Positions 3,246-35,305 of a stretch of DNA of 35,867 nucleotides are shown here, piece by piece (the stretch's first letter is position 1; each line of letters begins with the position of its first letter). Source of the DNA: a bacterium (GTDB taxonomy: Bacteria; SZUA-182; DTGQ01; JAFGSM01); the NCBI GenBank assembly GCA_016934595.1, contig JAFGSM010000051.1, positions 1 through 35,867 of the forward strand, in the 5' to 3' direction. A program made the translations under genes and the position numbers. The notes beneath the pieces are model-generated. The model searched no databases, was not told the origin of the DNA, and saw only the letters and a program-made list of their open reading frames with translations.

Positions 3246-4394
3246 ATGCACAAGAAGGACTTTTTGTTTACTTCTGAATCGGTGACAGAAGGGCATCCCG
3301 ATAAGATGGCAGATCAGATATCCGATGCGGTTTTGGACACTATAATATCTAAGGACCCTGTAGGGCGTGTGGCGTGCGAGACTCTGGTTACAACAGGTTT
3401 GGCCATGGTTAGCGGGGAGATAACCACAAATTGTTACGTGGATATACCCAAGATAGTTCGCGAGACAGTAAGGGAAATAGGATATATAGATGCGGATTAC
3501 GGCTTTGACTTTGAAACATGCGCTGTTTTGACTTCTATAGATGAGCAGTCCAGGGATATCGCCCAGGGAGTGGACGTAGGCGGGGCAGGGGATCAGGGTT
3601 TGATGTTCGGCTATGCATGCACTGAGACTGAAGAATTGATGCCCATGCCCATTCTTTTGGCTCATAAGCTTACAAAGAGGCTCAGCGAAGCGAGGCGAAA
3701 GGGGATATTGTCTTTTTTAAGGCCTGATGGCAAATCCCAGGTGACCATTGAATATGTGAACCTGAAACCCTTGCGGGTGGATAATGTGGTGATTGCGGCG
3801 CAGCATAATCCCGATGTATCCATAGAAACCATTAGGGAGGGGATCATAGAGGAGGTCATCCGGAAGGCGATCCCTGAGGGGCTGATCGATAAAGACACGG
3901 TTTTTTATATCAATCCTACAGGCAGGTTTGTCATAGGTGGTCCCCAGGGAGATTGCGGTATGACGGGCAGAAAGATCATCGTGGATACCTATGGCGGCGT
4001 AGGGAGCCATGGGGGCGGGGCCTTTTCCGGCAAGGACCCCAGCAAGGTTGATAGATCGGCTTCGTACATGGCCAGATACATCGCAAAGAATATAGTCGCA
4101 TCCGGTATTTCCGAAAGATGCGAGGTGCAGCTTGCATATGCGATCGGGGTGGCAGAGCCCGTATCCATAATGGTGGATACATTCAGGACAGGCAAGGTCA
4201 CGCTGGACAAAATCAGAAATCTGATCAGGGAACACTTCGACCTGACGCCTAAAGGCATAATCGAAACCCTGAACCTGCGAAGGCCCATATTTAAAAAAAC
4301 CGCGGCTTTTGGTCATTTTGGACGCCTTGATCCGGATTTTACCTGGGAGAAGACAGATAAGGCGGATCAGCTTCGCAGGGCCTCAGGCTTATAG
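3246..4394 (+). CDS. metK: S-adenosylmethionine synthetase
   Basis: MetK makes S-adenosylmethionine from methionine and ATP in the cytoplasm. At 382 residues it has the usual bacterial length. Visible motifs are [17 protein letters not shown] at the N-terminus, the central [12 protein letters not shown] signature, and the glycine-rich [16 protein letters not shown] loop that forms the phosphate site. The start ATG is preceded by GAAGGGAG. ahcY follows 37 bases after the stop, so the pair makes the methyl donor and clears its product S-adenosylhomocysteine. Several other genes in the window consume or bind SAM (queA, queE). Confidence 0.97.
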
Positions 4395-4407
4395 CTGGTG
4401 TATATAG

Positions 4408-5709
<1,302 letters not shown>

Positions 5710-23822: not shown

Positions 23823-24587
23823 ATGGAAAAACGCAAGAAAAGCCACTATGCAGTTGTCAGAGGCCAAAGACCAGGCATTTATGACAAATGGTATGGCGTG
23901 GATGGAGCAGAGGCCCAGGTTCGCGGGTTTACAAATGCCCTATATGAGGGTTTCTATTCACTTGAGGATGCAAAGGGTTGGTGGCGGCAGTTTAATGATA
24001 CAGAGCCTCAGATATATTTTGAAAAAAGGAGGTTAAGACCATCCTCCGGTAAATCCCGTTCAACCCATTCTAAGATTCCTGATTCTCCACTTAAAGCTGG
24101 CAAGGTAGTCATTTACACAGACGGGGGCTGTATCAAAAACCCGGGGCCTGGAGGATATGGAGCAATCCTTCTTTATGGAAGCCACAGGAAAGAGGTTTCA
24201 GCCGGATTCAGGCTTACAACAAATAACCGAATGGAATTGATGGCCTGCATAGAAGGATTAAAGCAATTAAGGCAGAAAAGCCCTGTAGTCATCTATTCGG
24301 ACTCGAAATATCTGGTCAACGGGATTATGAAAGGGTGGGCAAAAAGTTGGAGGGCGAGGGGCTGGATGAGGAACGAGATAGACAGGGCGGAAAATGCGGA
24401 TTTGTGGGCGCAACTTCTGGATTTGTGCGATAAACATGACGTCGAGTTTGTATGGATTAGGGGACATGCCGGAAATATGGAGAACGAGCGATGCGATCTG
24501 CTGGCTTTCGAAGCGGCGTCAAAACCTGGTTTGCCTCCTGACAATGCCTATGAGACCGGAAGGCCGTGGAATTTCTCAGGTGATTAA
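23823..24587 (+). CDS. rnhA: Ribonuclease HI with N-terminal viroplasmin-like domain
   Basis: About 254 residues. The N-terminal 50 residues (HYAVVRGQRPGIYDKWYGV, TNALYEGFYS, AKGWW) match the viroplasmin-like RNA:DNA-hybrid-binding domain. After a basic Ser/Pro-rich linker comes the RNase HI domain with the four metal-binding acids visible: Asp in YTDGGC, Glu in NRMEL, Asp in SDSKY and Asp in NERCD. It cuts RNA in RNA:DNA hybrids. The frame is open from 23742 inside asnA, but the domain starts at the ATG at 23823, so I use that. The gene overlaps queA tail to tail by 12 bases. Confidence 0.92.
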   Translation: MEKRKKSHYAVVRGQRPGIYDKWYGVDGAEAQVRGFTNALYEGFYSLEDAKGWWRQFNDTEPQIYFEKRRLRPSSGKSRSTHSKIPDSPLKAGKVVIYTDGGCIKNPGPGGYGAILLYGSHRKEVSAGFRLTTNNRMELMACIEGLKQLRQKSPVVIYSDSKYLVNGIMKGWAKSWRARGWMRNEIDRAENADLWAQLLDLCDKHDVEFVWIRGHAGNMENERCDLLAFEAASKPGLPPDNAYETGRPWNFSGD

Positions 24588-25610
24588 CATGGCGTCCCCA
24601 TAGCTGTAAAACCTGAACCCCTTTTTTATTGCAAGGTCATATGCCTTCATAATCAAATCATACCCGCTGAATGCACAAACAAGGACAAGGAGCGTGGAAC
24701 GCGGAAGATGGAAGTTGGTTATCAACGCATCTACGATCTTAAAATGGAACCCAGGCACTATAAAAAGATCGGTCCATCCATCCTGTTTTGATCCTTTAGG
24801 CGGGGGGGATTTCAGATACAATGTCTCAAGTGCCCTTGTCGTAGTCGTTCCAACGGCTATAATCCTGCGGCCTTCTTTTTTAGCAGTATCGATCAGGTCT
24901 ATGTCCTTGCCGCTTACAGAATATTTTTCAATGTCCATCTTGTGTTTAAGGATATCGTCTTTAATTATAGGCTTGAAGGTGCCAGGCCCTACATGAAGGG
25001 TCACAAAAGCTGTCACTACACCCTTTTCACAGATCTTCTTCATAAGTTCTTCAGTAAAATGAAGACCCGCGGTAGGGGCCGCAACTGCCCCAATATGTTC
25101 GGCAAAAACGGTTTGATACCTTTTTGTATCCTCTTTTGAAGGATCGGGTCTTTTGATATATGGCGGCAGGGGTACCTGTCCATATCTTTGCAATACTGCA
25201 ATGAAATCGCCCTCCCATTCGAAACGTACAAGCCACTTTCCGGTCCCCTCTTTATCTATTACTGTCCCCGAAAGGACGTCTGGAACAAAGATCAATTCTT
25301 GTCCTGGCTTTACCCTTCCTTTTATCAAACAAAGCCAGGTTTTTTTATCCAATGGATTTATAAGAAGGATTTCTATACTTCCTCCCGTTTCGGTTTTTTT
25401 GCCCTTTAGCCGCGCAGGAAAGACTTTTGTATCGTTCAGTGCCATAAGATCGCCAGGCCGCAGATAGTTTATAATATCCATGAATCTGCCCTCTTCTATG
25501 TTGCCTGTTTTACGATCAACAATCATGAGCCTGGAATGATCCCTTATGCTTGATGGCTGCTGGGCAATCAATCCTTCAGGCAGGGAAAAATCAAAGTCGG
25601 ATAGCTTCAT
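24576..25610 (-). CDS. queA: tRNA preQ1(34) S-adenosylmethionine ribosyltransferase-isomerase
   Basis: QueA transfers the ribose part of SAM to preQ1 in tRNA, giving epoxyqueuosine and releasing adenine and methionine. The 344-residue protein has the family motifs MKLSDFDFSLPEGLIAQQP at the start, LNDTKVFPARL, the APTAGLHFTEELM segment, TLHVGPGTFKP and the C-terminal YSYGDAMLI. It is the third gene of a minus-strand run queH, SpoIID gene, queA, separated from the SpoIID stop by 59 bases. QueH acts directly after QueA in the pathway. Confidence 0.97.
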   Translation of the reverse strand: MKLSDFDFSLPEGLIAQQPSSIRDHSRLMIVDRKTGNIEEGRFMDIINYLRPGDLMALNDTKVFPARLKGKKTETGGSIEILLINPLDKKTWLCLIKGRVKPGQELIFVPDVLSGTVIDKEGTGKWLVRFEWEGDFIAVLQRYGQVPLPPYIKRPDPSKEDTKRYQTVFAEHIGAVAAPTAGLHFTEELMKKICEKGVVTAFVTLHVGPGTFKPIIKDDILKHKMDIEKYSVSGKDIDLIDTAKKEGRRIIAVGTTTTRALETLYLKSPPPKGSKQDGWTDLFIVPGFHFKIVDALITNFHLPRSTLLVLVCAFSGYDLIMKAYDLAIKKGFRFYSYGDAMLIT

Positions 25611-25669
25611 ATTTTTTGATCGGAAAGTCTCATAAAATATTTATTATTTTTAGATCTGTTGGGAAGTAG

Positions 25670-26821
25670 TCAATAGACAGTAACTATACTTGATAGAGGA
25701 TAGTAATGGGTCAAGATATCTTCACATTTATACCCCTCTTCAGCCATTGCCTTTGCTCCCCATTGGCAAAGGCCTACGCCATGCCCCCATCCTTTGCCCT
25801 TAAATACAAAGGCATCTTTTTCTTTTATAATGGTAAATAAGGTGCTGCGGATAGTGTTATGACCTAAAAGCGCCCTCAACTGTTTGCCGCTAATGATCTC
25901 TTGTCCAAGGGAATGTGTAATTATAATGTTCTCTGCCCTGCCGCTGGATGACCTTTCCATTACACTTATAGATTTGATTACTCCCATGCGGAAGTATTGC
26001 CTCAAAAACAGATTCCTTATCTGAATATGGCCTATCTGGTTTTCCCACTCAAAGTGAGGGGATGCCTTGCAATAACTGCAGGGAACGCCTACCAGGGAAA
26101 GGTGATCATGGAATACATATCGGGCATCCTCGGTGTGGCCGCCGCAACATGCATGGTAAAGGGCAGGGATATAATCATTTTCATAAATAAGCGCCTGACC
26201 TCTGGTAGCATCGACCGCATGATCCGTCATAGGGTCTTCGCCACAGACCCCAAGATAAACCTGAGATTCTGTGGATGCCTTCAGATCGTAAAGGCTATTT
26301 GTGTTATGGGCAAGCTGATAAAGCGCATATGTCCTGGCAATAACTGCCTGAGCCTTCAGGCTTTCAAATGACCATGAAGGGGATATCTCCGCCTTCATCA
26401 AACCCTTTATATATTCTTCTATCCCAAGCCTGTTTATAACCCCCAGTTTCCAACTCTTGTCAAGAAAAATCACTATTTCACCCCTGTAGAGGTACTGATC
26501 AAATTTTATCGGGTTTTTACCTGTAGATTTAAGGGCGATGCTCGCAAAGTCATATTTTTCGCCGTTAATACTTATCCCTGATGGAAGAGGTAAAAAATCC
26601 AGGGGTTTCTCTTCAGAAGTTTTGAAGGTTCCTAGAGTCTTTCCTCCCTCTGCCGTTATACAGATGCCTCCCTGCTCTTTAATAGAAATAAACGGCGTTC
26701 CTCCTTTTATCAAGACCCTAATCATGGGGGGATTGCCTGGCATAGCATCAGCGGATAACCAGACAAGAAAACAGGTTGTCAATAAAATATAAACAAATAG
26801 CGGTTTAAGCAGTCTTTTCAT
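25670..26821 (-). CDS. SpoIID/LytB domain protein
   Basis: A 383-residue exported protein. It has a signal peptide at about residues 1-27 and a SpoIID domain over roughly 120-380. Motifs are SFESLKAQAVIARTYAL, the CCGGHTED segment and the C-terminal GWGHGVGLCQWGAKAMAEEG. SpoIID proteins are lytic transglycosylases that cut glycan strands stripped of stem peptides; LytB-type members enhance amidases. In a non-sporulating Gram-negative it presumably acts in septal or general peptidoglycan turnover. It overlaps queH by 17 bases and sits between two queuosine genes, with PBP1A and an LpoA-like gene close by. Confidence 0.9.
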   Translation of the reverse strand: MKRLLKPLFVYILLTTCFLVWLSADAMPGNPPMIRVLIKGGTPFISIKEQGGICITAEGGKTLGTFKTSEEKPLDFLPLPSGISINGEKYDFASIALKSTGKNPIKFDQYLYRGEIVIFLDKSWKLGVINRLGIEEYIKGLMKAEISPSWSFESLKAQAVIARTYALYQLAHNTNSLYDLKASTESQVYLGVCGEDPMTDHAVDATRGQALIYENDYIPALYHACCGGHTEDARYVFHDHLSLVGVPCSYCKASPHFEWENQIGHIQIRNLFLRQYFRMGVIKSISVMERSSSGRAENIIITHSLGQEIISGKQLRALLGHNTIRSTLFTIIKEKDAFVFKGKGWGHGVGLCQWGAKAMAEEGYKCEDILTHYYPLSSIVTVY

Positions 26822-27452
26822 TCTCCATCCCTTTATCTTCTGTTATTATCCTTTTGTTTTGCTTAGGCCTTTTGTAACCCAGATATCTGTCCCTTTCACT
26901 ATAGATGCATCCGCAGTACCCCTGACGATAAAGGCTTAACGTTTTAGACCTTTCTATCCCCTCTTTCCAACCTGAACGAAAATCCCGATAAAGAAAAGGG
27001 ATGCCGTATTTATCAGCCAGACTTGTGCCTATCCGTCGGATGGATTCATGATCCTGATATTTGCTATAGAGCAGGGTTGAAGTAAAACAGGTGAACTCCC
27101 CTCGTCTCGCCACAATTGCCGTCTCTTTAAGCCTCATGTAATAGCAATGAAGGCAACGTTTTTCCTCCCTGAAGGCAACCCCCCTCAAAAATTCATCAAG
27201 ATCGTAGCTGTCCCTGTAAATGATCCTCATCCCTCCGGTCTTCTCCAATTCCTGAACCGTCTGCAATCTCTTTTGATATTCCGAATAAGGCTGGATGTTA
27301 GGATTATAGAAAAGGCCGAGGACCTGATAACCTTCTTTTAAAAGGGCGGCACGCGGATAAAGAAAGCATGGCGCACAACATATATGAACCAGAACCTTCT
27401 TCAGCATGTCAGTTCTTTTGACAACCTCCTGCCGCAAAATTCTGCCGTCCAT
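26805..27452 (-). CDS. queH: Epoxyqueuosine reductase QueH
   Basis: QueH reduces epoxyqueuosine to queuosine in tRNA, the last step of the pathway, and is the cobalamin-independent alternative to QueG. About 215 residues. Diagnostic cysteine motifs are HICCAPC at the N-terminus, KRCLHCYYMRL in the middle and YCGC near the C-terminus, which hold an iron-sulfur and a metal site. The frame is open from 27512, but the ATG at 27452 has GGAGGAGGA immediately upstream and gives the usual length. It leads the queH, SpoIID gene, queA run. Confidence 0.93.
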   Translation of the reverse strand: MDGRILRQEVVKRTDMLKKVLVHICCAPCFLYPRAALLKEGYQVLGLFYNPNIQPYSEYQKRLQTVQELEKTGGMRIIYRDSYDLDEFLRGVAFREEKRCLHCYYMRLKETAIVARRGEFTCFTSTLLYSKYQDHESIRRIGTSLADKYGIPFLYRDFRSGWKEGIERSKTLSLYRQGYCGCIYSERDRYLGYKRPKQNKRIITEDKGMENEKTA

Positions 27453-27645
27453 TCCTCCTCCATTATCTTTAATTATATTTTTTATAAATGGGACGGTCAT
27501 TGCACAAGGCAACTTTTCTAAAGGATAAAATAAGCCCTGATATGAATGTTAGGAATATATCATAATATGGGCTGATTGTAAAAGAATAGTCCCCCTGACA
27601 CTCTGACACTTACTTGACTTATCCTATATTAGGTATTATTTTAAG

Positions 27646-30006
27646 ATGGCTTTTGGGAAAGGCACTGGATATTTGTCTCTTATCTTAATATTATTATGGT
27701 ATATGAACATTTTGATTGATAATAAACTTATACATATCCGTATATGGTTGGTATGTATCTTGTTTTTTGCCATTTTTGTAATGGCAGGATTTGGATGCGG
27801 CGCAGGAAAAGACATAAGGATGCCTTCTATCAGGGGAGGTCAAGACCTTTTTGCTGCCGCTGAACAACTCTATGAGAAAAGGCGCTTTCAACAGGCAGAG
27901 GCATTATATAAAAGATATCTTGACTCTTTCCCTGCCCCTTCACTTGCAGACAATGCCCTCTTTCGTTTGGGAGAGATCGCTATGGAGTCTGGGGATTACA
28001 GCCGCAGCCTCGAATTTTTTCAGAGGATATCGGCAAATTATCCGGGAAGCGAGATCATACCGTCTGCCAGATTCTATGCTATACGGTCTCTTTTCCTTAA
28101 TTCATCCTGGGATGATGCATTGAATGCTATAGCCAAGTTTCAGAAGGAGTTCCCTGCAACGCAGTATGATCCTCAAGTGAGGTTTATTCTTTCGGAGATT
28201 TATATCAAGACAAAAGAGTACCAAAAGGCAAAAGAGGCTGCCTTGGACCTTATAAAGATTCATCCCCAGTCCTCATTGAAAGATAGTGCGTTGTATCAGC
28301 TTGGATTAAGCGAGATGTATCTTGGGGAGACAGTTCAGGCTATAGGGCATTTAAAGTTAGCCCTTGCTGCTGACCTTGATGAGGATCAGAGGCAGAATGT
28401 TTTATATACACTTGGCACTCTGTATCTAATGAAAGGGGATTTGCGTTTGGCTGTTGATAAATTCAGCGACATGGTGAGATCTCCTGGAATTGGGGAGAGG
28501 AAAGACAGGATTGCCCAAAAAATAGAAAACCTCTTTAAGGATCGATTTACTGATGAGGAGATTATGGATATTATACGTGCACACCCGGATGATTTTCCTG
28601 GTGATCTTGCCTTGCTTGAGATGGGTGAAAGGCTTTTTAAACGAAAGGAATTTTTTGAGGCCAGGCGTTACTGGGGGTTGTTTTTGTCCAATTTTCCAGA
28701 CCACCCCAAGGTTCCGAATATAAAAAAATCCATGACACTTTTTAAGGAAGGAAGTGAACTCGGCTGTACAGGTAAATTTGGCTGTATTGCGCCGCTTTCA
28801 GGCCCTTTGGCGGAGTATGGCGAAAAGATGGTCAAAGGGGTTAAGATGGCGATTGATGAATATAATCAGAGATACGGCACATCAGTTAAGGTGGTACTCT
28901 TTGATTCACAGGCTAAGCAGGATAATGCGCAAAAGGGGGTAGAGCTTCTTGCATATCAGGAGAAGGTATCGGCGATCATAGGGCCTCTCTTGACTTCTAC
29001 TGCCATGTCAGCAGCAAGTGTTGCAGAGCGCATTGGCATCCCGCTTTTTACCCCAACTGCATCAGGGGAAGGCCTGCCTGAGTCCGGAAGGTTTATATTC
29101 CGGAACTGTTTGACCAACCAGCACCAGGCAGAAGAATTGGCCAATTATGCGATTGAGGAAAAAGGGCTGACAAATTTCGGGATATTTTTCCCTTTTAATC
29201 CTTATGGCCAGGGGATGATGACTGCCTTTTCAGACAGGGTTGAGGAATTAGGCGGCAATATAAATATTATAGAGTTTTATGACCCTGAGGATACGGATTT
29301 CAAGGATCAGATTATAAGGATCAATCAGGCAATGCCAGAGGCGCTTTTTTTGCCGGGATCTTATGAGAAAATAGTGCTGATAGCCCCCCAGATACGTTTC
29401 TATGAACCTGAGGAGCCAGACCCGAACGATCCGAACCATGCAGTTATGAATATTACGGATTCGACTGTCTTTGCGGATTATGATTCATATCCGGATTTTG
29501 TGGAGATTACATCAGGCTATGATGAAGACGGCGGATCAGATGAGGATAAAACAGAAGATAGTGGGCCAAAGGTGGAGGCTGTACAGCTTTTGGGCACAGA
29601 TGGCTGGTATGATGAAAGGGTTGTAAAAGAAGGTGAATCGTATGTGGATGGCTCTATTATAAGCGTTGGATTTTATCAGGATAGCGCTGATCACCGTATA
29701 AGAGCATTTTCGTCGAATTTCAGGGCAAGATACGGGCATCCGCCTGATCTTGTCTCCGCGCAGGCATATGATGCGACAAATATGCTTTTAGAGGCGAGCG
29801 ACGGGGCAACGGCTACATGGGATACAATCAGGGAAAGGCTTTCACAGATAAGGGATTTCCCAGGCGTAACCGGAAAGACGACTATCCTTCCGTCAGGTGA
29901 TTCGAAAAAAGAGATCACCCTGCTTCAGATTAAAGGCAAAAGGTTTGTCCATTTAGACAGGTCTCCATTCAATCCGAAGAGCGGGCCTTTCTTTCTGGAA
30001 AATTGA
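27646..30006 (+). CDS. LpoA-like protein: TPR plus periplasmic-binding domain
   Basis: Up to 786 residues. An N-terminal membrane segment (about 31-50) ends in AGFGCG, a poor but possible lipoprotein box with Cys51. Tetratricopeptide-type repeats cover about 60-330 (repeated LYEKRRFQQAEALYKRYL, NALFRLGEIA patterns). A type I periplasmic-binding fold follows at about 345-770, starting GKFGCIAPLSGPLAEYGEKM as in leucine-binding proteins. TPR plus this fold is the architecture of LpoA, the outer-membrane activator of PBP1A, and a PBP1A gene converges on it with a 38-base overlap. A transport or sensory role is the alternative. An acidic loop lies at about 586-644. A start at 27703 is also possible. 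Confidence 0.8.
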   Translation: MAFGKGTGYLSLILILLWYMNILIDNKLIHIRIWLVCILFFAIFVMAGFGCGAGKDIRMPSIRGGQDLFAAAEQLYEKRRFQQAEALYKRYLDSFPAPSLADNALFRLGEIAMESGDYSRSLEFFQRISANYPGSEIIPSARFYAIRSLFLNSSWDDALNAIAKFQKEFPATQYDPQVRFILSEIYIKTKEYQKAKEAALDLIKIHPQSSLKDSALYQLGLSEMYLGETVQAIGHLKLALAADLDEDQRQNVLYTLGTLYLMKGDLRLAVDKFSDMVRSPGIGERKDRIAQKIENLFKDRFTDEEIMDIIRAHPDDFPGDLALLEMGERLFKRKEFFEARRYWGLFLSNFPDHPKVPNIKKSMTLFKEGSELGCTGKFGCIAPLSGPLAEYGEKMVKGVKMAIDEYNQRYGTSVKVVLFDSQAKQDNAQKGVELLAYQEKVSAIIGPLLTSTAMSAASVAERIGIPLFTPTASGEGLPESGRFIFRNCLTNQHQAEELANYAIEEKGLTNFGIFFPFNPYGQGMMTAFSDRVEELGGNINIIEFYDPEDTDFKDQIIRINQAMPEALFLPGSYEKIVLIAPQIRFYEPEEPDPNDPNHAVMNITDSTVFADYDSYPDFVEITSGYDEDGGSDEDKTEDSGPKVEAVQLLGTDGWYDERVVKEGESYVDGSIISVGFYQDSADHRIRAFSSNFRARYGHPPDLVSAQAYDATNMLLEASDGATATWDTIRERLSQIRDFPGVTGKTTILPSGDSKKEITLLQIKGKRFVHLDRSPFNPKSGPFFLEN

Positions 30007-32392
30007 TTTGTATGTCCTGCGCATCGACCATTCTTGTATCCTTGCTCAGTTCCATGTCCATCTGAACAAAATGGGCGCTTGTGATTTGATGGGCTTTGCA
30101 TAGCTTTTTGGGGGCAGTACCATCACGGAAAGCCTCTAGAAGGATATCATTGCATTCCCCGGTGGCAAGGAGCCCTGTTTTGCGGTCAATGGATACGAAT
30201 TCGATTCCAGGCGGAATAGGGAAATCCTTGACAGTTTTGCCGTCAAGATATCCTTTCATAAAATTGACCCAGACAGGGGATGCTGCCTTGGAACCCGTTT
30301 CCATATCCCCGAGGCTTTTATATTCGTCAAAACCTATCCAGACGCCTGCTACGATGTCTGGACTGAAGCCAATGAACCAAGCGTCTATATAATTATTAGT
30401 GGTTCCTGTTTTGCCTGCCAGGGGTCTGGCAAGGGCCTTTGCCTTCCATCCGGTGCCGTGATCTATAACGCCACGAAGGGCCTGAGTCATCAAATATGCC
30501 GTTTGTTCGTCAATCGCCCTTTCTGGATGAGGATGGTGCTCTTCTAATATCCGTCCGTCAGGGCCTTCTATCTTCAATATGGCGACAGGCATTGTCTTTA
30601 TCCCGCCTGTAGCAAAAACCCCGTATGCAGATGTAAGTTCCAGAAGGGATACTCCTGAGCTTCCGAGTGCAAGAGAAAGGTCCGCTGACAAAGGTGACAC
30701 TATCCCCATATCCTTGGCAGTTTCAACAGACGCATCGATCCCTGCCTTCTTCAGCACCTTGATGGTTATCACATTCCTTGATTTTTCCAATGCCTCTCTT
30801 AGCGTGGTAGGCCCATAGAATTTTTGATAATAATTGACTGGTTTCCAGTCTTTCTCCTGCTCATCATCCTGGTATATGATTGGTGAATCTATAAAGATAT
30901 CAGCAAGGGTATATCCCTGTTTTAATGCGGTCGTGTATATAAAGGGCTTAAACGCTGAACCCGGCTGCCTTTTTGCCTGAACTGCGCGGTTGAACTTGCT
31001 GGTTTCAAAATCGTATCCTCCGGCCATTGCCTTGATATGGCCTGTGTGTGGATCTATCGCTAAAATAGCCCCCTGTACCTCAGGCACCTGATCCATTGCC
31101 AGTCTAAAAAGGGTCTCTGCCTTATTATCAGGGTCTTTAAGCCTTTCCAGAATCCTTACATATATCTTGTCCGCAGGTTTGATAATGGATTCCAAAGACT
31201 TTGTCCCTGTCCAGGAGGCATCATCAATACCCAGGATACCCTTTATGCCTGTGCCATACATGAGAATCAATGCCTGGGATGAAGAGACATCTACAACCTC
31301 TCCTAAGATGCGGTTTTTAGGAAGAATACCAGTCTCAATACAGGCAATTAACTCCCTTTCTATATCCTCATAGTTGCCTCCTTTTGGATTTTCGCTTTTT
31401 CCTTTTATATCTTGGATATTTCGGAAACCCTGTCTTTTATCCAGTTCTTCCAGCCCGCATTTCAGCGCATCTTCAGCATATTTTTGCAGATCAGGGTCAA
31501 GCGTAGTATAGACCTTAAGACCTCCCCTATAAAGCATAGTAGCGCCGTATTTCCCCTCAAGATATGACCTTATATATTCTACAAAATATGGGGCTTGGGC
31601 AGATTGATCTTTGTTTTTGCTAAGATCAATGGATGTATTTATGGATGATTGATATTGATTATAGTCAATATAGCCTTCTTCCAGCATCCTTTTTAATACA
31701 TAGTTGCGGCGTGATAAGGCGCGGTCAGGATGACGGGTGGGATTATATAGGTTTGGCGCCTTTGGCAGGCCTGCCAGGAGCGCTGACTGGGTAAGGCCGA
31801 GGTCTTCAGCATGCACTCCGAAAAAGGTCCTGGCTGCGGATTCAATCCCATATGCCCCGTTTCCGAAATAGATTTGATTCAGATATAGCTCTAAGATTTT
31901 ATCTTTGGAATAAAGCTTCTCCACTTCAAGGGCAAGGAGCGCCTCCTTAAGTTTGCGTATGATGGTCTTTTCTGAGTGAAGAAGAAGTGAGCGTGTCAAC
32001 TGCTGGGTTATGGTGCTTCCTCCCTCCATGAAACCTTTATGCCTTATGTTGCGTATGGCTGCCCTTGATATCCCACCCCAATCAAGGCCGTTATGTTTGT
32101 AAAAACGGGCGTCCTCTACGGCGATGACAGCCTGTATCATATGAGAAGGAAAAGAGACGTAAGGAACCAGTATCCTTTTTTCAAGACAGAAATGAGCCAG
32201 GGATTGTCCATTAGAGTCATAAACCCTAGTTATAAGGCTTGGCTCGTATTCCTTGAGAATAGACAGATCCGGCAGTTGCCTCTTTATCTGTATAAAAAGT
32301 CCGGTGACGGAGCCTAAAAGCATAACGAAAAAGATAATGAGCGTGTAAACGAGAAAGAGGAACCCCTTCTTAAGATAAGATGATATTGACAT
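29969..32392 (-). CDS. mrcA: Penicillin-binding protein 1A (bifunctional peptidoglycan synthase)
   Basis: An 807-residue class A PBP that polymerises glycan strands and cross-links peptides. After a membrane anchor (about 10-35) the GT51 glycosyltransferase domain shows EDARFYKHNGLDWGG (Glu93) and GGSTITQQLTRSL. The transpeptidase domain shows SAFK (Ser479, Lys482), SRN (538-540) and KTGTT (from 661). A region between the domains at about 330-430 resembles the OB-like insert of PBP1A. All catalytic motifs are intact. It converges with the LpoA-like gene and lies downstream of the HEPN gene on the same strand. Confidence 0.96.
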   Translation of the reverse strand: MSISSYLKKGFLFLVYTLIIFFVMLLGSVTGLFIQIKRQLPDLSILKEYEPSLITRVYDSNGQSLAHFCLEKRILVPYVSFPSHMIQAVIAVEDARFYKHNGLDWGGISRAAIRNIRHKGFMEGGSTITQQLTRSLLLHSEKTIIRKLKEALLALEVEKLYSKDKILELYLNQIYFGNGAYGIESAARTFFGVHAEDLGLTQSALLAGLPKAPNLYNPTRHPDRALSRRNYVLKRMLEEGYIDYNQYQSSINTSIDLSKNKDQSAQAPYFVEYIRSYLEGKYGATMLYRGGLKVYTTLDPDLQKYAEDALKCGLEELDKRQGFRNIQDIKGKSENPKGGNYEDIERELIACIETGILPKNRILGEVVDVSSSQALILMYGTGIKGILGIDDASWTGTKSLESIIKPADKIYVRILERLKDPDNKAETLFRLAMDQVPEVQGAILAIDPHTGHIKAMAGGYDFETSKFNRAVQAKRQPGSAFKPFIYTTALKQGYTLADIFIDSPIIYQDDEQEKDWKPVNYYQKFYGPTTLREALEKSRNVITIKVLKKAGIDASVETAKDMGIVSPLSADLSLALGSSGVSLLELTSAYGVFATGGIKTMPVAILKIEGPDGRILEEHHPHPERAIDEQTAYLMTQALRGVIDHGTGWKAKALARPLAGKTGTTNNYIDAWFIGFSPDIVAGVWIGFDEYKSLGDMETGSKAASPVWVNFMKGYLDGKTVKDFPIPPGIEFVSIDRKTGLLATGECNDILLEAFRDGTAPKKLCKAHQITSAHFVQMDMELSKDTRMVDAQDIQINFPERKARSSD

Positions 32393-32479: not shown

Positions 32480-32914
32480 TCATGCAGAGGTCAATATGTT
32501 GCTTTGAACGAACTCCTTCAGCACCTTGTACACATACTCTCCTTTGCTTAATGCCTCCATAGCCTCTGACTCTCCATAAACCTTTGATGGAACCCATAGG
32601 GGAAGATCTTTCCTCTGATACAGGGGAAATCTTGTCCTCGCGCCATGCTTTTCAAGGGAAATGATAGCCCCGTATATCTTGTCTATGTCATCTATTTCTC
32701 CCCTAAAAACAGCCAAGAAGAGGGTAGATGTCTTGTGATCCCTTGTCACTACACTTCTCATGGTCAGGCATGCCTTTGTAATTTTTTCAACCGCTTCTTG
32801 GGCAAAATGGATGGTCCTGCTGTAAAGACCGTTGACATAAGTGAGCCTTGCGGCTTCTATATCGATTTCGCTTTCTATTAGATATGCCTCAACAATATCT
32901 TTAGGGTCGTGCAT
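32480..32914 (-). CDS. HEPN domain protein, stand-alone
   Basis: About 144 residues. The segment YSRTIHFAQEAVEKITKACLT matches the core helix of HEPN proteins, and helices on either side complete the fold. HEPN proteins are often RNases or toxins paired with an MNT nucleotidyltransferase, or accessory domains. The usual R-X4-6-H catalytic motif is not evident, and no MNT gene is beside it, so it may be a non-toxic member. I use the ATG at 32914, with GAGGAGGGGG just upstream, instead of the GTG at 32929. It has its own strong promoter. Confidence 0.8.
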   Translation of the reverse strand: MHDPKDIVEAYLIESEIDIEAARLTYVNGLYSRTIHFAQEAVEKITKACLTMRSVVTRDHKTSTLFLAVFRGEIDDIDKIYGAIISLEKHGARTRFPLYQRKDLPLWVPSKVYGESEAMEALSKGEYVYKVLKEFVQSNILTSA

Positions 32915-33107: not shown

Positions 33108-33821
33108 TTATTCCTGATATTTCAACGGGTCTGGAAATCCTGCCTCTTTAAAGCCTTTTAGCCTGATCTGACAACTATGGCATCTGCCGCATGGCAGTCC
33201 GGCAGAGTCGGGCTGATAGCAGCTGGATGTTATGCTATAATCCACACCAAGCCTGAGACCGGTCTGGATAATCTCTGCCTTTGACATATAAAGTAGGGGG
33301 GATCGGATTCGGATTGGTTTGCCGTGACATATACCCGCCTTGGTGCCAAGCCTTGCTGTCTCTTCAAACGAATCTATAAACTCGCCTCTGCAGTCCGGAT
33401 ATCCGCTGTAATCCATTGCATTTGCTCCAATAAATACCTCGCCGGCGCAGGTTGCCTCCGCCCATGCAACAGCCAGAGACAGAAAGATGAGGTTCCTTGC
33501 AGGCACGTATGTGCTGGGCACAATATTTAGGGTTTCTGATCCGGAAGGTCTTGCATCATGGGATTCGAATAAAGGGGATGTGGGTATCTTCTGATTGATA
33601 TCGGTCAAACTGGAGCCGCCTATTTTTTCCATATCTATATTTAATACAAGATGCCTTTCAACCCCAAAATATGTGGCGACACGTTTTGCAGCAGAGATTT
33701 CGAAGGCATGTCTCTGTCCATACAGTACACTCAGAGAGTATATTTTTCTGCCCTCATCCTTTGCTATTGCCAGGCAGGTGGCGGAGTCAAGTCCCCCGCT
33801 TGTAAGGCAGACCGCCTTCAT
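33108..33821 (-). CDS. queC: 7-cyano-7-deazaguanine synthase
   Basis: QueC turns 7-carboxy-7-deazaguanine into preQ0 with ATP and ammonia. About 237 residues. It has the PP-loop SGGLDSATCLA at the N-terminus, the VLYGQRHAFEI segment, the conserved VPARNLIFLSLA, and C-terminal zinc cysteines in SSCYQ and PCGRCHSCQIR. I choose the ATG at 33821, preceded by GGGAGGGGAAG and overlapping the queE stop by four bases; the upstream start at 33842 lies deep inside queE. It is the last gene of the nucleosidase-like gene, queE, queC operon. Confidence 0.96.
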   Translation of the reverse strand: MKAVCLTSGGLDSATCLAIAKDEGRKIYSLSVLYGQRHAFEISAAKRVATYFGVERHLVLNIDMEKIGGSSLTDINQKIPTSPLFESHDARPSGSETLNIVPSTYVPARNLIFLSLAVAWAEATCAGEVFIGANAMDYSGYPDCRGEFIDSFEETARLGTKAGICHGKPIRIRSPLLYMSKAEIIQTGLRLGVDYSITSSCYQPDSAGLPCGRCHSCQIRLKGFKEAGFPDPLKYQE

Positions 33822-34465
33822 CTTCCCCTCCCTGATCCCCATAAAATCTTGTGAATCTGTAACTGAAGCCTGACTTCAAGCCTATCTTCAAGGATCCAGT
33901 CAGCCAACAAGCTGGGCTTCATAAAGGGCTCAACAGGGGAAAATATGCACTGGGCTAGATTCTGTATCCCGTGCCTTTCGATTATCCCCTTAGCCCATAT
34001 AAAGTCATTTCTGTCGCCTATGACAAACTTGATCTCGTCCTGTTTCGTCAGATGGATCAGGTTTTGGTAACGATTCATGTGGCTTTGACCGCTAGCCGGG
34101 CATTTTATGTCCATTATCCTGACCACCCTTGTGTCTATTTGGCTTATATCCATGCTCCCGTTTGTTTCAAGATATATTTTATGGCCCCGTTCCAGAAGGG
34201 CATTAATCAGAAAAGGCGTCTTCGGCTGAACAAGGGGTTCTCCACCAGTGACAAGCACATGGCGGGGATAAGGGTTTCCAGTCATTTTGAGTATTTCCTC
34301 AAGGGACATGTTTTGAAAATCCATTTGGGCATATTTTGTGTCGCAATAGCTGCATTTGAGATTGCATCCGCCCATCCTGATGATTGTGCATGGCCAGCCC
34401 GATGCGCCAGATTCTCCCATCAGGGTCTCATATATCTCGCATATTTGAAACGAGTCAGGCATCAT
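33818..34465 (-). CDS. queE: 7-carboxy-7-deazaguanine synthase (radical SAM)
   Basis: QueE rearranges 6-carboxytetrahydropterin into 7-carboxy-7-deazaguanine using SAM and a 4Fe-4S cluster. The 215-residue protein has the CX3CX2C motif at Cys34, Cys38 and Cys41 (CNLKCSYC), preceded by the ETLMGESGASGWPC segment usual in QueE, and the VLVTGGEPLVQ radical-SAM glycine motif. It starts immediately after the stop codon of the upstream nucleosidase-like gene and overlaps queC by four bases, so the three are surely co-transcribed. queD is not in the window. Confidence 0.96.
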   Translation of the reverse strand: MMPDSFQICEIYETLMGESGASGWPCTIIRMGGCNLKCSYCDTKYAQMDFQNMSLEEILKMTGNPYPRHVLVTGGEPLVQPKTPFLINALLERGHKIYLETNGSMDISQIDTRVVRIMDIKCPASGQSHMNRYQNLIHLTKQDEIKFVIGDRNDFIWAKGIIERHGIQNLAQCIFSPVEPFMKPSLLADWILEDRLEVRLQLQIHKILWGSGRGR

Positions 34466-35224
34466 TTAATAGCCCCATGATTTGATAACATTCATTAATC
34501 GGCTGACAAACCTTTGATTTGCATAGCAGGCAAAGATGACAGCAAATTGGAGACGAAGGACATTGGGAACCTGATCTATTGGCCTTGGTATTAAATGATG
34601 CCTTTTCCACCAAAAGGGGTTGAGATAGGTTAAAGGAGGAAGCTTGAAATTCCATGTATCAGATACCGATCTGATGATCAAATACGGGATGTCAAGCAGG
34701 GAAAAAAAACTGGCAAAATAGTACGACTCCATATCCACACACCCGAGATCTGGTGATTCCCTGTGCAGGGCAATCTTGTCTTCCCTGTCAAATGCACTTT
34801 TAACAGTCATTGACGGGAGAAAAGACACCTTTGAAGCCCTAAAAGAACCTGCCGTCGAACAGGCGAGCGCCAGCATCTCCTTTCCTGTGTTAAACGAAGC
34901 AGCATCCTTCTCACGGAGCCTGACTTGTGGCGGGATATTTAGATGTGCTATCTTCATATAAGGCATTAGCGATCCGGCGCATCCAATGTTTAATGCCAGC
35001 CTGATCTTAAGTTCTTTAGGGAGATTGCGCAAGGAGCGCCTGATATTTTTCCCGCCTATCCCGGATTGAACAAGAAGCGCCCTTTTGCCCATATAGCTGC
35101 CATAATAATATATTGATCTGCCTTTTTCCCATATTGTTTTTCCAATAAGTCCCCTTTTGATCCAAAAGATCTCCTGCGGCGTCGCCCCGCAAATACAGAT
35201 AACCTCTCTGATTAAGTCGTTCAT
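34466..35224 (-). CDS. Nucleoside phosphorylase/nucleosidase superfamily protein
   Basis: About 252 residues. The glycine loop SGIGGKNIRRSL, the NIGCAGSL strand, the VDMES motif and the RSVSDTW segment match the MTA/SAH nucleosidase and purine nucleoside phosphorylase fold, with the catalytic Glu and Asp positions apparently kept. The C-terminal 50 residues (PFWWKRHHLIPRP onward) are not typical of the core family. It cleaves an N-glycosidic bond, but the substrate is unknown. It abuts queE with no gap and leads a queuosine operon, so a 7-deazaguanine nucleoside is one possibility; MTA or SAH is another. I prefer the ATG at 35224, with AGGG upstream; 35245 is the alternative. Confidence 0.75.
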   Translation of the reverse strand: MNDLIREVICICGATPQEIFWIKRGLIGKTIWEKGRSIYYYGSYMGKRALLVQSGIGGKNIRRSLRNLPKELKIRLALNIGCAGSLMPYMKIAHLNIPPQVRLREKDAASFNTGKEMLALACSTAGSFRASKVSFLPSMTVKSAFDREDKIALHRESPDLGCVDMESYYFASFFSLLDIPYLIIRSVSDTWNFKLPPLTYLNPFWWKRHHLIPRPIDQVPNVLRLQFAVIFACYANQRFVSRLMNVIKSWGY

Positions 35225-35305
35225 AACATCCCTGTTAACCTCCATGGTCCAGTGTTCGGGATCATTTTAGCATGATTGTGATGTATTAAAAAGATAGAGT
35301 CAGAT

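Follow-up and report, generated by a model that had tools for sequence, protein, structure and literature searches.

A nucleosidase-like gene leading a queE-queC operon in one bacterial order: a putative link to the 5'-deoxyadenosine formed by QueE

Why should a gene for a nucleosidase-like protein stand at the head of an operon with queE and queC? This arrangement occurs in a stretch of 35,867 nucleotides (the window; contig JAFGSM010000051.1, genome G000), and an earlier note on this DNA had proposed that the first gene, here called nuc, acts on 7-deazaguanine nucleosides. The tight operon described there is borne out, as the stop codon TAA of nuc directly precedes the ATG of queE and the ATG of queC overlaps the queE stop as ATGA (4 bases), leaving no gaps along nuc-queE-queC, and the order is kept in three genomes of the order (Table 1). 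For nuc an alternative start exists at the in-frame ATG of codon 8 (35224, the gene end given in the earlier note), and for queC, whose listed open reading frame starts at 33842, the ATG used here is likewise the in-frame codon 8. QueC passes the NCBIfam model TIGR00364 (191.4 bits against a cut-off of 150.3), and for QueE, which contains CxxxCxxC, the best curated model is TIGR04349 with 255.2 bits, below its cut-off of 300; a sequence search of the PDB with QueE gave three matches, each of them a 7-carboxy-7-deazaguanine synthase. A Hpt-domain gene (PF01627) lies 60 bases upstream of nuc. The Rfam search of the window yielded no preQ1 riboswitch and no other RNA match, and promoter and terminator scans of the window gave nothing above shuffles. 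The genes queA and queH are found on the same strand about 6 to 10 kb from nuc-queE-queC, 1.2 kb apart and with a SpoIID-domain gene in between (24576-27512). Because queE, queC, queA, and queH are all present in the window, queuosine appears, judging by gene content, to be made de novo. Genes for SAM synthetase and SAH hydrolase adjoin each other in the window (3246-5709).

Table 1. Genes of the conserved block and further queuosine genes, with positions in the window
Gene	Position	Strand	Predicted product	Remarks
nuc	34466-35245	minus	PF01048 nucleosidase, MTAN/HpnG-like group	259 aa counted from the first ATG
queE	33818-34465	minus	radical SAM 7-carboxy-7-deazaguanine synthase	CNLKCSYC motif
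queC	33108-33821	minus	7-cyano-7-deazaguanine synthase	PF06508, 239.5 bits
HEPN-domain gene	32480-32914	minus	HEPN-domain protein	downstream of queC; PF05168, 41.9 bits; syntenic in G002 and G004
PBP gene	29969-32392	minus	penicillin-binding protein (transglycosylase/transpeptidase)	last gene common to the conserved block; named from sequence; 51% identity to the syntenic gene of G004 and G002
queH	26805-27512	minus	epoxyqueuosine reductase	PF02677, 201.8 bits
queA	24576-25610	minus	SAM:tRNA ribosyltransferase-isomerase	PF02547, 432.5 bits

PF01048 was the sole Pfam match of Nuc at E<=1 (53.8 bits against a gathering cut-off of 25.1). Its best NCBIfam match was the HpnG model TIGR03468, with 50.5 bits far from the cut-off of 187.1, and scores also stayed below the cut-offs for two curated MTAN models (47.1 against 169 and 31.1 against 73.8 bits) and for futalosine hydrolase TIGR03664 (18.8 against 124.7 bits). 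An AlphaFold2 model of Nuc (pLDDT 82.8, pTM 0.84, 17 sequences; residues 201-220 low) was closest to MTANs in structure comparison (3bl6; Z 29.4, rmsd 1.9, 214 aligned, 19% identity), and the first entry beyond MTANs and futalosine hydrolases was a uridine phosphorylase (Z 22.8). The Foldseek and VIA lists place MTANs and futalosine hydrolases first, and families missing there are not thereby excluded. These profile matches and the model place Nuc within PF01048 as a divergent member of its MTAN/HpnG-like part.

The elements GCAG, DMES, and SDTW, which had already been pointed out, are present at residues 88-91, 171-174, and 195-198 of Nuc. E25, M172, E173, and D196 align with Glu12, Met173, Glu174, and Asp197 of Mtn from E. 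coli, of which Glu12 and Asp197 are catalytic and Met173/Glu174 bind ribose; that Mtn variants with Glu12Gln and Asp197Asn appear in PDB titles fits this catalytic role. Nuc thus retains the MTAN (Pfs; TIGR01704, PRK05584) fold, by the structure prediction that the earlier note had suggested, and the MTAN catalytic residues, by alignment, but, unlike in MTAN, the 5'-group loop (Mtn residues 102-113) and Phe151 and Phe207 are not conserved in Nuc, in a region where the alignment is loose, and the overall identity to E. coli Mtn is 19%. The C-terminal tail, which had been called atypical, is long in comparison with MTAN, 63 residues following the catalytic Asp as against 35 in E. coli Mtn, but it is ordinary in comparison with six homologues of other families (61-64 residues: G001 63, G032 63, G013 61, G096 62, G301 64, and G180 64), whereas 46 and 54 residues were counted in G004 and G002. 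The long tail marks a wider HpnG-like group and is nothing specific to queuosine; the pattern TV...EK...DMES is likewise common to Nuc and HpnG.

In order to see how far the linkage to queE extends, nine genomes of the phylum were compared, G000 among them, all of which possess queC; five of these (G000-G004) belong to the order, G002 and G004 representing one genus of another family than G000. A nuc gene adjoins queE in three of the nine (G000, G002, and G004), and the gene order purF-nuc-queE-queC-HEPN-response regulator-PBP of G002 and G004 corresponds to nuc-queE-queC-HEPN-PBP in the window. The same downstream genes recur in G002 and G004, so that this arrangement goes beyond coincidence and the block is inherited. 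Between G000 and G004, identities amount to 27% for Nuc, 46% for QueE, 54% for QueC, 79% for the HEPN protein (79-80% when G002 is included), and 51% for the PBP. Nuc is therefore the least conserved protein of the block (27% as against 46-79% for its neighbours) and also the fastest-evolving one, with a dN/dS of 0.38 between G002 and G004 as against 0.02-0.16 for the four other genes; this value of 0.38 means that nuc is under constraint. A phylogenetic tree joined Nuc of G000, G001, G002, and G004 in one clade (support 92/85, long branches), and as this is insufficient alone, orthology rests on synteny. The order also contains genomes with a different arrangement: G001 and G003 show purF-queE-queC without nuc alongside, the nuc homologue of G001 being located elsewhere in the genome and none being found in G003 by profile search. 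In G005, G007, and G008 neither nuc nor queE was detected in the 1.5 kb flanks of queC, and in G006 queC is cut off by the contig start. The linkage between nuc and queE is old and inherited, yet narrow, being confined to a few related bacteria.

Outside the phylum, the surroundings of queC were read at 141 loci, over about 10 kb or up to the contig end; they derive from the strongest listed QueC matches (245 of 386 genomes had a match), so that the sample favours high-scoring QueC proteins. A queE-like gene occurred in 62 of them, at most 1.5 kb from queC in 61 of those, and a nuc homologue within a queE/queC operon in none of the 141. A search for this neighbourhood in other genomes, which the earlier note had recommended, therefore succeeded in three of nine genomes within the phylum and not once in the sample beyond it. 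Three of the neighbourhoods contained distant relatives or weak matches: in L117 a uridine-phosphorylase-like gene encoded on the other strand at a distance of about 1 kb, in L222 a weak cut-off match (E 8e-4) at about 4 kb, and in L218 a weak match to MqnB (E 2e-4) at about 3 kb.

When the single Nuc protein was used to scan genome contigs for close relatives, no relative was obtained, and a scan with a four-row alignment gave 21 loci, 16 of which grouped in a single MTAN-like clade, with record titles pointing to Bacteroidota or Pseudomonadota throughout; several of these 16 adjoin a LuxS-like gene, as assessed by eye. At 26 loci with nuc homologues (L184-L209, including L189 and L191, already read as L005 and L004), neither queE nor queC was seen in flanks of 1.5 kb. 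Homologues scattered without queuosine genes had been named beforehand as evidence against a queuosine role; this is partly the case, as the homologues mostly lie apart from such genes (these 26 loci and G001). A gene encoding CxxxCxxC was near the homologue at one of the 26 loci (L207), divergently oriented and so not in the same operon; the test first applied a greedy overlap filter and then asked for this motif within residues 1-140, and in another set queE of L006 and hpnH of L037 escaped it. Adjacency to a radical SAM gene was accordingly rejected as a trait of the family at large (no same-operon radical SAM gene at 26 loci). Such adjacency exists elsewhere. In G006 (L011, 411-2154) the gene of a nucleosidase homologue overlaps one for a radical SAM protein resembling spore photoproduct lyase (PF20903, 119.2 bits), and in Bipolaricaulota (L030 and L037) a short HpnG-like gene abuts the radical SAM gene hpnH (387.7 bits in L030). 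We consider these radical SAM neighbours a hint, not a rule. A squalene-hopene-cyclase-like gene, named by eye, lies downstream in L030 and L037.

Which substrate might Nuc then cleave? At the base site, Asp is present in enzymes acting on adenine compounds, namely MTAP of the same genome (TD) and Mtn (SD), and Asn in 6-oxopurine enzymes, namely MqnB of G001 and G004 (SN) and both PNPs of the same genome (TN, SN), so that Asp versus Asn separates the two groups among the homologues compared here. Nuc and its homologues of G001, G002, and G004 have Asp, which fits adenine and argues against the 6-oxo base 7-deazaguanine. In G000, PF01048 genes encode Nuc as the sole MTAN-type protein, a MTAP, and two PNPs; MTA is covered by MTAP and SAH by an AdoHcyase-domain gene (4408-5709). 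HpnH was not found in any of the nine phylum genomes at E<=1e-20, and a hopanoid function of Nuc, as in HpnG proper, was for this reason rejected. For MqnA/MqnD (PF02621) no match was obtained in G000, whose genome is about 93% complete, so that the absence of any gene there is no proof, and G001, G002, and G004 possess, in addition to their nuc homologues, MqnB genes that exceed the TIGR03664 cut-off and lie beside MqnA/MqnD-family genes. Since a role with MTA, SAH, hopanoids, or futalosine is either covered by other enzymes or lacks its pathway, 5'-deoxyadenosine or another derivative thereof remains. Each of the two PNP genes of G000 (L050 and L052) lies beside a gene for an amidohydrolase resembling MTA/SAH deaminase, as read by eye, and this pairing points to a deaminase-phosphorylase route for nucleosides of the adenosine type.

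On sequence and modelled structure, Nuc most likely hydrolyses adenine nucleosides, and a part in queuosine salvage is unlikely. Our leading, still tentative reading is that this hydrolase is translated together with QueE and most likely cleaves the 5'-deoxyadenosine formed by QueE. QueE is reported to use SAM catalytically and yet to form 5'-deoxyadenosine with or without substrate (PMC11994313), and 5'-deoxyadenosine is described as an inhibitor of radical SAM enzymes (PMC8102628). QueE would release 5'-deoxyadenosine in abortive and shunt turnover, Nuc would cleave it to adenine and 5-deoxyribose, and this removal would free QueE and further radical SAM enzymes from product inhibition while adenine is recovered. 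Gene order and its conservation are observed, as are, by alignment and model, the catalytic residues and fold; we infer that 5'-deoxyadenosine is the main substrate and QueE the partner that matters. This reading is favored by the block nuc-queE-queC-HEPN-PBP kept in G000, G002, and G004, by the retained MTAN fold with Glu12, Glu174, and Asp197 of Mtn, by the Asp at the base site, by the constraint on nuc, by the other enzymes available for competing substrates, and by the homologues that overlap or abut radical SAM genes in G006 and Bipolaricaulota. Against it, QueE need not make stoichiometric amounts of 5'-deoxyadenosine given its catalytic use of SAM (PMC11994313), and MTAP of G000 could do the same job, as MTAP is stated to cleave 5'-deoxyadenosine in Synechococcus (PMC8102628). 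Furthermore, queE-queC of G001 and G003 does without an adjacent nuc, nuc evolves faster than the rest of the block, and no such pairing appeared in the sample outside the phylum. The link to the QueE by-product is nevertheless the best-supported idea, and a putative one. A literature search, which mostly did not reach subscription papers, returned nothing joining QueE, deoxyadenosine, nucleosidase, and radical SAM, and the main text of a paper on QueC neighbourhoods (PMC13329287) contains neither "phosphorylase" nor "PF01048".

Nearly as likely is that Nuc is a general nucleosidase for MTA, SAH, and 5'-deoxyadenosine which travels in the purF/que region and has no functional tie to queuosine. 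An MTAN fold with its catalytic residues and homologues in unrelated neighbourhoods would be expected of such an enzyme, and G000 has no other MTAN-type gene. In addition, nuc overlaps purF by 4 bases in G002 and G004, and purF could therefore equally be the partner. However, the genome holds dedicated enzymes for MTA and SAH, the place of nuc before queE survived long divergence, and Nuc scores far under the MTAN cut-offs with a 5'-group loop (about 102-113) that is not conserved.

An improbable alternative, drawn by analogy with adenosylhopane, is that some radical SAM enzyme makes a 5'-adenosylated product from which Nuc takes off adenine, as HpnG is reported to do after the radical SAM enzyme HpnH (PMC12583986). 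HpnG provides the best NCBIfam match of Nuc, shares its long tail and DMES pattern, and, in Bipolaricaulota, likewise has a radical SAM gene directly beside its own. The HpnG-like protein abutting a true HpnH in L030 itself reaches 69.9 bits, so the TIGR03468 model (187.1) misses it. Nuc is still further from this cut-off, no HpnH was found in the nine phylum genomes, and we know of no adenosylated product made by QueE.

Cleavage of preQ0, preQ1, or queuosine nucleosides, as originally proposed for this gene, is very improbable and found no support beyond the operon with queE and queC. The base-site Asp of MTAN-type enzymes protonates N7, an atom that 7-deazapurines do not have, so a 7-deazaguanine, a 6-oxopurine without N7, is a poor fit to Asp196, where 6-oxopurine enzymes have Asn; by its title, PDB entry 1nc1 is a complex of wild-type E. 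coli MTAN and 5'-methylthiotubercidin, a 7-deaza analogue. Moreover, queA, queH, queE, and queC are all present. The earlier note was correct in assigning QueK and Qng1, whose genes are tied to queuosine as nuc is by position, to other enzyme families (IPR023186 and IPR019438, PMC11130926), and Nuc matches PF01048 only. A menaquinone-related role on futalosine or aminodeoxyfutalosine, despite the superfamily shared with MqnB and weak fut_nucase matches (for Nuc, and with 63-70 bits for the G002 and G004 proteins), is close to excluded in G000 and was rejected on the missing MqnA/MqnD match there, on the separate MqnB of G001, G002, and G004, and on the Asn that MqnB has where Nuc has Asp.

If Nuc serves QueE, the locus would show, at the genetic level, a radical SAM enzyme that comes with an enzyme of its own for by-product disposal, and the cost of abortive SAM cleavage in vivo would become testable; if not, nuc encodes a MTAN-like enzyme in a local operon. 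A bolder version, which we regard as rather unlikely, would have one bacterial order possess a nucleosidase dedicated to the radical SAM step of a tRNA modification, coupled to QueE translation and removing, with a remodelled 5'-group pocket, 5'-deoxyadenosine or an unknown 5'-adenosylated side product. Either way, caution is advised, as a nucleosidase beside que genes need not mean queuosine salvage.

The HEPN protein is the most conserved of the block, with 79-82% identity to its counterparts in G001-G004. Outside the order its gene was found in only two other genomes of 372, with weak matches (E 1e-12 to 1e-13), and the flanks that were read did not reveal an MNT partner. All five genomes of the order have two HEPN paralogues (loci L238-L242 and L245-L249), of which one precedes a response regulator and/or PBP gene and the other, in four of the five genomes, lies near a rhomboid-like gene identified by eye.
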